From Burkholderia pseudomultivorans (GTDB lineage: Bacteria; Pseudomonadota; Gammaproteobacteria; Burkholderiales; Burkholderiaceae): a stretch of 64,000 nucleotides of DNA. The DNA is taken from the NCBI RefSeq assembly GCF_001718415.1, contig NZ_CP013378.1, positions 4,402,001 to 4,466,000 on the forward strand. Direction: 5' to 3'. Made by a program: the position numbers and the translations under genes. The notes beneath the pieces were generated by a model that searched no databases, was not told the origin of the DNA, and worked only from the letters and a program-made list of their open reading frames with translations. Positions 45,624-48,653 of the stretch are shown one piece after another (within the stretch, counting starts at the first letter, position 1; the number at the start of each line of letters is the position of its first letter).

Positions 45624-46619
45624 ATGCCGGCCGCGCCCCACGCTCCGATGACCGCTGCCCACGATTCCGCCACCCCGTTCCCCTGCGCCCGCTTCATCAA
45701 GGAAATCGGCCGCGGCCCGCACGGCGCGCGCGCGCTGTCCGCCGACGACACGTTCGCGCTCTATCGCGCGATGCTCGATGCGCGCGTGTCGGACCTCGAG
45801 CTCGGCGCGATCCTGATCGCCTATCGCCTGAAAGGCGAAACCGCCGACGAGCTGGCCGCGATGCTCGCCGCCACGCATGCGTCGTTCGAGCCGCTGCACG
45901 TGCAGGACGCCGCGTTCCGTCCGGTGTCGATCCCGAGCTACAACGGCGCGCGCAAGCAGCCGAACCTCGTGCCGCTGCTCGCGCTGCTGCTCGCGCGCGA
46001 AGGCGTGCCGGTGCTGGTGCACGGCGTGTCGCAGGATCCGGGCCGCGTGACGAGCGCGGAGATCTTCGCGGCGCTGTCGATCGCGCCGTCGACGTCGCAC
46101 GACGCGATCGAGGACACGCTCGCCGAGCGCCGCGTCGCCTTCGCGCCGATCGACGCGCTGGCGCCGCGCATCGCGCGCCTGCTGTCGCTGCGCGCGGTGC
46201 TCGGCGTGCGCAATTCGACGCACACGCTCGTGAAGCTGCTGCAGCCGTTCGCGCCGGCGGGCCTGCGGCTCGTCAACTATACGCATCCGCCGTACCGCGA
46301 CAGCCTCGCCCAGCTGTTCCGCGACCATCCGGATGCCGCGCTCGGCGGTGCGCTGCTCGCGCGCGGCACCGAGGGCGAGGCGGTCGCCGACACGCGGCGC
46401 CAGGTGCAGGTCGACTGGCTGCACGACGGCGTCTGCGACACGCTGATCGCCGCCGAGCGTTCGTCGGCCGACGCGCCGCCGGTCGAGCTGCCGGAATCGC
46501 GCGATGCCGAGACGACCGCCGCGTGGACCGGCGCCGTGCTGCGCGGCGAGGTTCCGGTGCCCGAGGCGCTCGCGCGACAGGTCGAGACGATCGTGCGAAT
46601 CGCGCGGATCGCGCCCTGA
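45624..46619 (+). CDS. ybiB: YbiB/TrpD2-family DNA-binding protein
   Basis: A 331-residue protein of the anthranilate phosphoribosyltransferase fold, YbiB (TrpD2) branch. It shows FIKEIGRGPHGARALSADDTFALYRAML, IPSYNGARKQPNLVPLLALLLAREGVPVLVHG and VLGVRNSTHTLVKLLQP. Family members bind nucleic acid rather than synthesise tryptophan. The start may be ATG 45624 (used) or 45648; neither has a clear ribosome site. It lies upstream of the leu leader. Confidence 0.82.
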   Translation: MPAAPHAPMTAAHDSATPFPCARFIKEIGRGPHGARALSADDTFALYRAMLDARVSDLELGAILIAYRLKGETADELAAMLAATHASFEPLHVQDAAFRPVSIPSYNGARKQPNLVPLLALLLAREGVPVLVHGVSQDPGRVTSAEIFAALSIAPSTSHDAIEDTLAERRVAFAPIDALAPRIARLLSLRAVLGVRNSTHTLVKLLQPFAPAGLRLVNYTHPPYRDSLAQLFRDHPDAALGGALLARGTEGEAVADTRRQVQVDWLHDGVCDTLIAAERSSADAPPVELPESRDAETTAAWTGAVLRGEVPVPEALARQVETIVRIARIAP

Positions 46620-46663
46620 CGGGCGCTGCCACGGCGACGCGGGCCGGTTTCACCTCCGACCAT

Positions 46664-46693
46664 TTGACACGCGCGGGCATCCTGGCATAGAGT
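46664..46693 (+). promoter_or_regulatory. Promoter of the leu leader-leuA transcript
   Basis: A perfect -35 TTGACA (46664-46669), 18-base spacer and -10 TAGAGT (46688-46693, four of six). Predicted transcription starts at about 46700, at or next to the ATG of the leader peptide. Confidence 0.6.
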
Positions 46694-46700
46694 TGTCGCC

Positions 46701-46775
46701 ATGCGTTCCTTTCCGAACACCCTCCGAATTACCTCCGGCCGCCTAGCGCGGCCGCTATCGCTACGACTAGCCTAA
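46701..46775 (+). CDS. Putative leucine leader peptide (attenuator), 24 aa
   Basis: A short frame reading MRSFPNTLRITSG then RLARPLSLRLA and stop. Five of 24 codons are Leu and four of them (codons 15, 19, 21, 23) are CTA, the rarest Leu codon in a genome this GC-rich; CTA is nearly absent from neighbouring genes. The cluster falls in the last ten codons, just where a ribosome starved of Leu-tRNA would stall. The UAA stop lies in the loop of a strong hairpin (46759-46788). It precedes leuA by about 230 bases. The pattern is that of trp/leu-type attenuation leaders. No strong ribosome site is present, but the predicted transcript begins at the ATG. Confidence 0.75.
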   Translation: MRSFPNTLRITSGRLARPLSLRLA

Positions 46776-46788
46776 GGCTGTCGTAGCG
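46759..46788 (+). promoter_or_regulatory. Hairpin overlapping the end of the leu leader peptide
   Basis: Nine pairs (46759-46767 with 46780-46788), one bulged U, four more pairs (46769-46772 with 46776-46779) and a UAA loop that is the leader stop codon. A smaller upstream hairpin, GGCCGC/GCGGCC, lies at 46737-46753. A ribosome stalled on the CTA codons would cover the 5' arm and release the 3' arm. No clean terminator was found further on; a T5 run at 46844-46848 follows two copies of TTCTCGCAG. Confidence 0.65.
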
Positions 46789-47006
46789 CCGTGTGCTGTC
46801 CGCACGGTCCCTCCCAGCAGTTCTCGCAGCACCCTTCTCGCAGTTTTTACAACCCGAAGTCGTCAGCTTTCGTCCGTCTATCCGTCGGTCGATTCGCGAA
46901 GATCATCCGCATCCGCAGCGCGATCCGGCGCCACGGTGCGAGGCAGCGTCAACCGTCGCTCATGCCGTCCGTCTTCGCTCGCGACTTGAGCCCCGAGGCC
47001 AAGAAG

Positions 47007-48653
47007 ATGAAGCGCAACCCGCAAGACAAGTACCGAGCGTTCGAACCCGTCCGTATCAACGGCCGCAAGTGGCCGAACCGCACGATCGAGCGTGCGCCGG
47101 TCTGGATGAGCACCGACCTGCGCGACGGCAACCAGTCGCTGATCGAGCCGATGAGCATCGAGCAGAAGCTTGAGTTCTTCGAGATGCTCGTCGCGATCGG
47201 CTTCAAGGAGATCGAAGTCGGTTTTCCGTCGGCGTCGCAAACCGACTTCGATTTCGTGCGCAAGCTGATCGACGAGCGGCGCATCCCCGACGACGTGACG
47301 ATCGAAGTGCTCGTACAGTCGCGCGAAGACCTGATCGCACGCACGTTCGAGGCGCTCGAAGGCGTGCCGCGCGCGATCGTGCACCTGTACAACGCGATCT
47401 GCCCGTCGTTCCGCCGCATCGTGTTCGGAATGTCGAAGGACGACGTGAAGGCGCTCGCGGTCGAGGGCACGCGGCTCATCAAGGAACACGCGGCGGCACG
47501 CCCGGACACGCACTGGACCTACCAGTACTCGCCCGAAACCTTCAGCATGACCGAGCTGACGTTCGCGCGCGAAGTGTGCGACGCGGTCGCGCAAATGTGG
47601 CGTCCGACCCGCGACCACAAGATGATCGTCAACCTGCCGGCGACCGTCGAAGCGGCGATGCCGAACGTGTTCGCCGACCAGATCGAATGGATGGACCGCA
47701 ATCTCGCGTATCGCGACAGCATCGTGCTGTCCGTGCATCCGCACAACGATCGCGGCACCGCGGTCGCGGCCGCCGAACTCGCGCTGCTCGCAGGCGCCGA
47801 CCGCATCGAGGGCTGCCTGTTCGGCAACGGCGAGCGCACCGGCAACGTCGACCTCGTCACGCTCGCGCTCAATCTCTATACGCAGGGCATCGACCCGGGC
47901 CTCGACTTCTCCGACATCGACCCGGTGCGCCGCGTCGTCGAGCGCTGCAACCAGATTCCCGTGCATCCGCGCCACCCGTATGCGGGCGACCTCGTGTTCA
48001 CGGCATTCTCGGGCTCGCACCAGGACGCGATCCGCAAGGGCTTCGCGCAGCAGCGCGACGACGCGCTGTGGGAAGTGCCGTACCTGCCGATCGATCCGGC
48101 CGATCTCGGCCGCAGCTACGACGCGGTGATCCGCGTCAACAGCCAGTCCGGCAAGGGCGGCGCGACCTTCCTGCTCGAACGCGGAATGGGCTTCACGCCG
48201 ACGCGGCGCGTACAGATCGAATTCAGCCACGCGGTGCAGACGCTCGCCGACGCCTCCGGCGAGGAAGTGACGGGCGATGCGATCTGCGCACTGTTTGCGC
48301 GCGAATTCTTCGAGACCGACGGCCCCGCCGCGCGCCACAACCACGCTGCGCGCTGGCAGAACCGCGAGATCGGCGGCGCGTTCGCGGCCGACGCGACGCC
48401 CGAGGATGCGGTGCAGCGCGCGGCCGCCGTCTTCGCGGCAGCGGCCGGCGCGACGATCGATGTCGCGTCGTGCGAGCACGTGCGCACGGCGGACGGCCGG
48501 ATCGCGGTATCGGTCGGCTGCTGCGTCGGCGACGCGCCGCTGCGGCACGGCGTCGGCGTGCACGCGGACGCGACGAGCGCCGCGCTCGACGCGGTCGTCA
48601 GCGCAATCAACCGTTCGGCGTGGCACTGCGCCGACCGCCGCGCGGCGGCCTGA
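47007..48653 (+). CDS. leuA: 2-isopropylmalate synthase (long, LeuA2-type)
   Basis: A 548-residue enzyme condensing acetyl-CoA with 2-ketoisovalerate, the first committed step of leucine synthesis. The catalytic HMGL-like barrel shows [51 protein letters not shown] and [16 protein letters not shown]-terminal regulatory domain (about 430-548) mediates leucine feedback. The ATG at 47007 ([15 protein letters not shown]) follows GAGG; an in-frame ATG at 46962 is possible. It is preceded by the CTA-rich leader, so both transcript and enzyme appear leucine-controlled. Confidence 0.95.

Follow-up and report, generated by a model that had tools for sequence, protein, structure and literature searches.

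The question raised by this locus is whether a short, leucine-rich reading frame in front of leuA lets the cell sense a shortage of leucine and, if so, by which route the signal would reach the gene. In the window, that is, the whole 64,000-nucleotide stretch of Burkholderia pseudomultivorans DNA that was analysed, a 24-codon ORF runs on the + strand from the ATG at 46701 to the TAA at 46773-46775. The predicted leader peptide is MRSFPNTLRITSGRLARPLSLRLA, and CTA is used at codons 15, 19, 21, and 23 (46743, 46755, 46761, and 46767). A preliminary description of the locus had pointed out this frame with four CTA codons among its last ten, and its coordinates hold. The comparisons set out here suggest that the ORF very probably lets the cell sense leucine shortage.

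The gene behind the leader is leuA of the long class of 2-isopropylmalate synthases (47007-48653, + strand; NCBIfam TIGR00970, leuA_yeast, 716.8 bits with a cut-off of 697.4). Its start is most likely at 47007 (MKRNPQDKY) and not at 46962. The start at 46962, or an upstream extension, was rejected because the ATG is missing in the relatives L015 and L028 and a stop codon is present in L029. A likely Shine-Dalgarno region (GAGG) can be read at 46990-46999 (+ strand). With the start at 47007, leuA lies 231 nt past the leader stop, in line with the distance of about 230 bases given before. The same genome also holds a second leuA-like gene of 514 aa (L002, 880-2424, - strand), the product of which is about 29% identical to the window's LeuA.

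The leader ORF, its promoter and its rare codons

The ORF is preceded by a predicted promoter (46664-46693, + strand) with TTGACA as the -35 hexamer (46664-46669), an 18-nt spacer, and TAGAGT as the -10 hexamer (46688-46693). It was the sole sigma-70-like site found by a promoter scan of 46300-47300, and shuffled sequences gave a mean of 0.0 (sd 0.2). From the position of the promoter, the transcript is predicted to begin at 46701 or at a neighbouring base.

The best 80 of 479 LeuA relatives, fetched without reference to the leader, consisted of 69 from Burkholderia s.l. and 11 from Cupriavidus, Ralstonia, Collimonas, Glaciimonas, and similar genera. The leader was present in all 69 loci of the first group (Burkholderia, Paraburkholderia, Caballeronia, and Trinickia) and in L084, a locus from a sample of the order, and this form of it was absent from the 11 others. 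Together, the window and 70 relatives from these four genera make up the 71 loci compared here. TTGACA was found in 71/71 loci, with the best -10-like hexamer ending 6-9 nt before the leader ATG, and a Shine-Dalgarno-like motif ahead of that ATG was found in 0/71. Both the promoter spacing and the absence of such a motif fit a leaderless ORF in all 71 loci, the 5' end being a predicted one. It had been proposed that the TTGACA promoter places the transcript start at the ATG, and the promoter scan and the spacing agree with this; the reading frame and the CTA codons, the conservation of which had been suggested as a check, are kept in 71/71 loci, and so is the distance from promoter to ATG.

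The use of Leu codons differs between the two parts of the leader. Over the 71 loci, 288 of the 290 Leu codons among the last 12 leader codons are CTA, as compared to 0 of 88 among the earlier codons. CTA is invariant at codons -2, -4, and -6 from the leader stop (71/71), and codon -3, between two fixed CTAs, varies (CGA in 35, CGT in 31, CGC in 4, and AGT in 1). In the leuA genes themselves (69 of the 71 genes) CTA accounts for 2 of 2282 Leu codons, and in the window background for 7 of 1555, counted in 35 gene-like ORFs whose selection for high GC3 favours a low figure. Within the leader it is thus the codon CTA, and not merely leucine, that is kept, and only at the places of the control codons. 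The 24 codons carry their own internal control, with selection for one rare codon seen at the control positions and nowhere else. Within the window, no frame other than the leader has 4 or more CTA among the last 10 codons ahead of its stop, and such CTA-clustered frames numbered 0 on the + strand of 100 order-2 Markov windows. A search of the 7.96-Mb genome with a spaced pattern of CTA codons derived from the leader gave a single match (control 0).

The peptide sequence surrounding the Leu codons, RLARPLSLRLA, is likewise conserved in most loci, which speaks for an alternative in which the peptide acts itself in trans and the control of leuA is secondary, as for peTrpL of Sinorhizobium; a leader peptide with a function in trans does exist, according to the available part of PMC7298713. 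However, it is CTA, rather than any Leu codon, that is fixed, and the N-terminal half of the peptide is more variable. The leader also always adjoins leuA here, but the loci were found through leuA. We regard a peptide acting in trans as very improbable.

Hairpins, conserved element and C-rich tract

The MFE fold of 46700-47010 shows three hairpins in a row, H0, H1, and H2, although the energy of the whole region is only mildly better than that of shuffled sequences (z -2.2; 4 of 100 shuffles as good). H0 (46736-46754, + strand) lies inside the ORF, with the first CTA in its loop region. H1 (46760-46787, + strand) has the last CTA codons as its 5' arm and exactly the UAA stop (46773-46775) as its loop, and is thus the strong hairpin with the stop codon as loop that had been noticed earlier. 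The counts for both use the 41 distinct rows of the 71 loci. H0 has 95.3% of its cells paired and two-sided changes in 3/6 pairs, and H1 has 92.9% paired and two-sided changes in 1/10 pairs, in 12 sequences. One H1 pair alternates between A-U, U-G, U-A, and C-G, three H1 pairs never vary and are therefore uninformative, and the innermost pair is broken in 14 of the 41 sequences. Taken together, H0 and H1 have 93.8% of the cells paired as compared to 90.4% with shuffled partners, and their two-sided changes in 4/16 pairs were reached by 0/500 shuffles, the number of further pair types by 26/500. Compensatory changes had been named as a check on the hairpin, and both H0 and H1 are kept with some of them.

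H2 (46788-46808, + strand) follows directly after H1. Over 30 distinct arm pairs it is 84.8% paired, more than any of 1000 shuffles (mean 81.2%, maximum 83.8%); the pattern that anchors H2, and also the 30-nt tract test below, misplaces some loci (e.g. L030). Further downstream, H3 (46859-46901, + strand) has the conserved flanks GTCGTC and CGCGA and 92.4% of its cells paired in 34 of 42 distinct segments (8 near-duplicate or shortened ones were dropped, and L044, L053, and L055 failed the anchor). The covariation of H3 is mixed: of 500 shuffles, 1 reached its score, 26 its percentage paired, 125 its number of two-sided pairs, and 490 its number of pair types.

A C-rich, G-poor tract on the + strand (46809-46858), with UUUUUACAACC near its end, is a candidate Rho-utilisation region. 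Its excess of C over G is reached by 2.3% of 7510 window positions, and a bias of this kind is met elsewhere too, with an own-flank fraction of up to 16%. For the 30 nt behind H2, in a test chosen post hoc, the median own-locus G-poverty fraction is 0.034 (n=71, highest 0.25). The tract begins about 34 nt past the leader stop, and the ribosome would not cover it.

It was also possible to observe a block, UUUUUACAACC-AGUCGUC (window 46840-46866), that is kept between the hairpins across Burkholderia s.l.; the outer side of H3 accounts for its AGUCGUC only in part. A pairing of the downstream AGUCGUC with ACGACU of the leader codons fits Burkholderia by eye and was rejected, the downstream copy being unchanged when the Arg codon changes.

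A conservation profile of 21 sequences less than 85% identical has values of 0.23-0.28 upstream of the promoter. Between 46661 and about 46910 they are mostly 0.5-0.98, the promoter spacer having 0.36, and between 46921 and leuA they are 0.22-0.54. The first profile shortened the longer relatives, and when it was repeated with longer stretches the drop past 46910 was less sharp. Since the profile is high from 46664 to about 46910, the conserved element covers about 240 bases and extends beyond the ORF and H1. Chance, or a conservation that is not regulatory, is hardly credible as an explanation in view of the rarity of the CTA cluster, the conservation of the paired hairpins, the promoter layout in 71/71 loci, the codon choice, and the conserved block.

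Leucine leaders in other families of the order

A match to this LeuA at E 1e-80 was present in 48 of the 150 genomes that made up the order sample, and loci were obtained for 30 places, the window's included, of which 29 were read. Leu-rich ORFs upstream of leuA are also present in other families, by a rule of 3 CTA or 6 Leu in the last 18 codons that was applied without a shuffled control. In Collimonas and Glaciimonas a distal ORF rich in CTA (7-9 CTA) is accompanied by a second Leu leader, which is proximal, and in Cupriavidus and Ralstonia the proximal leader was the only one seen. The core of the proximal leader is CGGTTGCCnGGCC...GTGGC...GGCAGCC...GCCAC, the first part of which was found by pattern in 20/40 loci, and the leader lies upstream of leuA in L073-L083, L085-L087, L091, L093, L098, and L100-L102. 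Its two stems share a region, and could be mutually exclusive or form a pseudoknot; in L080 and L082 a T run follows the second stem. Five of the proximal-leader loci were scanned with Rfam and gave no match.

Distal and proximal leaders stand in tandem, as judged by eye, in 12/40 loci (L076-L079, L081, L083, L087, L091, L093, and L100-L102), and the distal one looks leaderless. The distal peptide ends in L-L-R-x-(A/S)-R, at times with one residue more, in 12/29 loci of the order sample (by eye). Since TTGAC is placed 34-39 nt before the ATG in 9/14 of the distal leaders of this sample, and a Shine-Dalgarno-like motif was found in 0/14, many distal leaders in other families look leaderless too. 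Fourteen of the 29 loci were read as having a distal Leu leader without a terminator, and in these the 30 nt past the leader stop are G-poor, with a median fraction of 0.022 (Fisher p 2.5e-12, calculated post hoc and with related loci included); L088 (0.25) and L095 (0.12) do not stand out.

Not all loci follow this arrangement. In L104, L105, and L112 there is only one Leu leader, and the strong GC hairpin with a T run behind it resembles a textbook attenuator. Neither kind of leader was found in 7 of the 29 loci (L089, L090, L094, L106, L107, L108, and L111); these loci, and the 11 fetched relatives that lack the Burkholderia form, count against the explanation favoured here. In L096 the Leu codons of the leader are complementary to the leuA start region (z -2.42), resembling the base stem of the actinobacterial LEU element. 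Pairing between the Leu run and the Shine-Dalgarno sequence was rejected as a general rule elsewhere, L096 being the only one of the 14 other-family loci clearly below shuffles.

In Paraburkholderia and Caballeronia, the stretch between H3 and leuA contains CGCGAGGGTCA(A)ATGCAC and, behind it, a short ORF that reads MHVAWAS.. or MHAA.. (L027, L030-L036, L038, L041-L045, L047-L053, L056-L059, L061, L062, L064, L067, L068, L070, and L071). The start of this ORF is conserved and the remainder varies in frame and length; it is perhaps what is left of the proximal leader. The loci of Burkholderia s.s. and Trinickia gave no match to the pattern, and the window has no such ATG at this place.

A wider reading, which we offer tentatively and with some doubt, is that the long-class leuA of many Burkholderiales is controlled by a distinct leaderless Leu leader without intrinsic terminator, with Rho or a new route as its output. 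It would originally have stood in tandem with a proximal Leu leader that bears a terminator of competing hairpins, and Burkholderia would have kept only the leaderless one. If true, two leaders that sense the same amino acid via different outputs would give a graded control of leuA. The Burkholderia version, in which the rare codons are invariant and a second leader was not observed, would offer a simple setting in which to find the output.

Output of the leader and comparison with known systems

In the proposed mechanism, transcription would start at the AUG, and a ribosome would begin on the very 5' end and translate the 24 codons. A shortage of the Leu-tRNA that reads CUA would stall the ribosome on the CUA codons clustered towards the end of the ORF, and with an ample supply the ribosome would reach the UAA and leave. 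This sensor is supported since the frame, the CTA choice, and the hairpins are kept and the downstream gene makes leucine, and on these sequence comparisons we consider it highly probable that the ribosome position on the CUA cluster, set by Leu-tRNA, governs the amount of leuA mRNA or protein. The earlier suggestion that leuA is controlled by the supply of the Leu-tRNA for CTA thus gains support from 71/71 loci.

With regard to the output, nothing terminator-like was found in 46300-47300, and among the 71 loci 3 had a terminator-like match, which was weak; the caution expressed earlier about a missing intrinsic terminator was justified. A competing antiterminator fold was rejected, as no partner for the 3' arm of H1 was common to the clades in consensus folds made with the leader left out. 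When a stalled ribosome on the last CTA was simulated (20 of the 71 loci folded), the unpaired fraction of the H1 3' arm rose from 0.07 to 0.47, that of H2 went from 0.06 to 0.08, and that of the tract behind H2 was 0.64 when free, 0.61 when stalled, and 0.59 with the ribosome at the stop. With H2 and the C-rich tract hardly altered by the simulated stall, an RNA switch does not account for the output; the near-constancy of H2 was also a reason for rejecting a competing fold.

One alternative is classical trp/leu attenuation with an intrinsic terminator that was missed by simple rules, e.g. H2 or H3 without a U run. The conservation of H0-H3 is in keeping with it, as are the terminator-like hairpin and T run behind the different, proximal Leu leader of neighbouring genera (L080, L082) and the strong terminator-like hairpins of L104, L105, and L112. 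However, there is no competition between H1 and H2 for bases, the consensus folds show no other pairing of the H1 3' arm that the clades have in common, and the tails of H2 are not U-rich; classical attenuation is in our opinion quite improbable.

Another possibility is translational or mRNA-stability control, in which no termination takes place and a ribosome stalled at the 5' end alters the access to the leuA ribosome site or shields the mRNA from RNases. That neither a terminator nor a competing fold was found speaks for such control, and so does the unusually good pairing of the L096 Leu codons with the leuA start. Furthermore, in the actinobacterial LEU element the run of Leu codons has been proposed to pair with the Shine-Dalgarno sequence of leuA (Seliverstov 2005; available part of PMC1262725). 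On the other hand, the leader was no more complementary to the leuA start region than to shuffled start regions (mean z +0.32 over 71 loci), and pairing between the two was rejected; among the 14 other-family loci only L096 was clearly below zero. We find this type of control unlikely.

Rho is favoured since there are almost no intrinsic terminators and a G-poor tract lies behind H2 and after the leader stops of other families. After release of the ribosome, Rho would load on the exposed C-rich tract behind H2 and end transcription before leuA, and a stalled ribosome would hinder Rho, although no fold shows how. Taken by itself, Rho as output via this tract has slightly less than an even chance. 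The best joint reading, to which we give a probability of about 0.62, is that a leaderless leucine leader controls leuA via Leu-tRNA, with Rho as the first choice of output. E. coli tnaC is a leader ORF that acts through Rho and lacks an intrinsic terminator. The mgtA and mgtC leaders of Salmonella also combine a leader ORF with the lack of an intrinsic terminator; in the available part of PMC3641672, Rho is cited as shown for mgtA and raised as a possibility for mgtC, and here we only infer it.

No report of a leuA leader in Burkholderia or other betaproteobacteria was found in the literature among the matches listed, and the available main text of a paper on start sites in B. cenocepacia (PMC4603805) gave no match for leuA, leucine, or isopropylmalate. 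Rfam 15, searched at gathering score with the window and nine relatives, gave no match to the leader, the window's only match being a tRNA, and a search at E up to 10 gave two matches, at E 1.6 and 8.9.

As a sensor the leucine leader is ordinary in kind, and its predicted leaderless start and missing terminator make it a variant. Like the classical attenuator, it has a leader ORF in which codons for the product of the downstream pathway, leucine, are clustered, but an intrinsic terminator with a U run and a mutually exclusive antiterminator pairing were not found; because of these two differences, we do not place the leader among the classical attenuators. The classical leu leader of Salmonella and E. 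coli, leuL, has a Shine-Dalgarno sequence and an intrinsic terminator, whereas the Burkholderia leader is without a Shine-Dalgarno-like motif in 71/71 loci and has only the 3 weak terminator matches. The likeness to leuL lies in the rare CUA control codons of a leucine leader. The preliminary description had called rare CTA control codons unusual, but CUA also serves in the leu attenuator of Salmonella, which became less sensitive when CUG was put in its place (Carter et al. 1986, according to the available part of PMC1183508). As in trpL of Sinorhizobium meliloti, the RNA would begin at the ATG of a small attenuator ORF; trpL differs in that it concerns tryptophan, has a different sequence, and is described as acting by transcription attenuation (available part of PMC7298713).

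The Burkholderia leader would sense leucine with neither a ribosome binding site at its start nor a textbook terminator, and it is conserved throughout a large group made up of soil, plant-associated, and opportunistic bacteria. The leuA of Actinobacteria is presumably of the same long enzyme class as that of the window. LeuL1 of Streptomyces lividans is a leaderless Leu-codon ORF before leuA (available part of PMC8079986), and a leaderless leader is therefore less unusual than first held. The leuA leaders of Actinobacteria are described, in the available parts of PMC1262725 and PMC8079986, as having no typical Rho-independent terminator, and their mode of regulation was called unknown in 2005 (PMC1262725). 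There are also differences: the base stem between Leu codons and Shine-Dalgarno sequence was not found in the 71 loci, the actinobacterial leader peptides seen in these texts are 15 and 16 aa as compared to 24 codons in Burkholderia, and the CTA codons and H0-H3 are not described in the parts available. What the actinobacterial LEU element has in common with the Burkholderia leader is a Leu-codon leader ORF upstream of leuA and no typical terminator, and as far as these sources go, Actinobacteria have the same leaderless, terminator-less combination before leuA.
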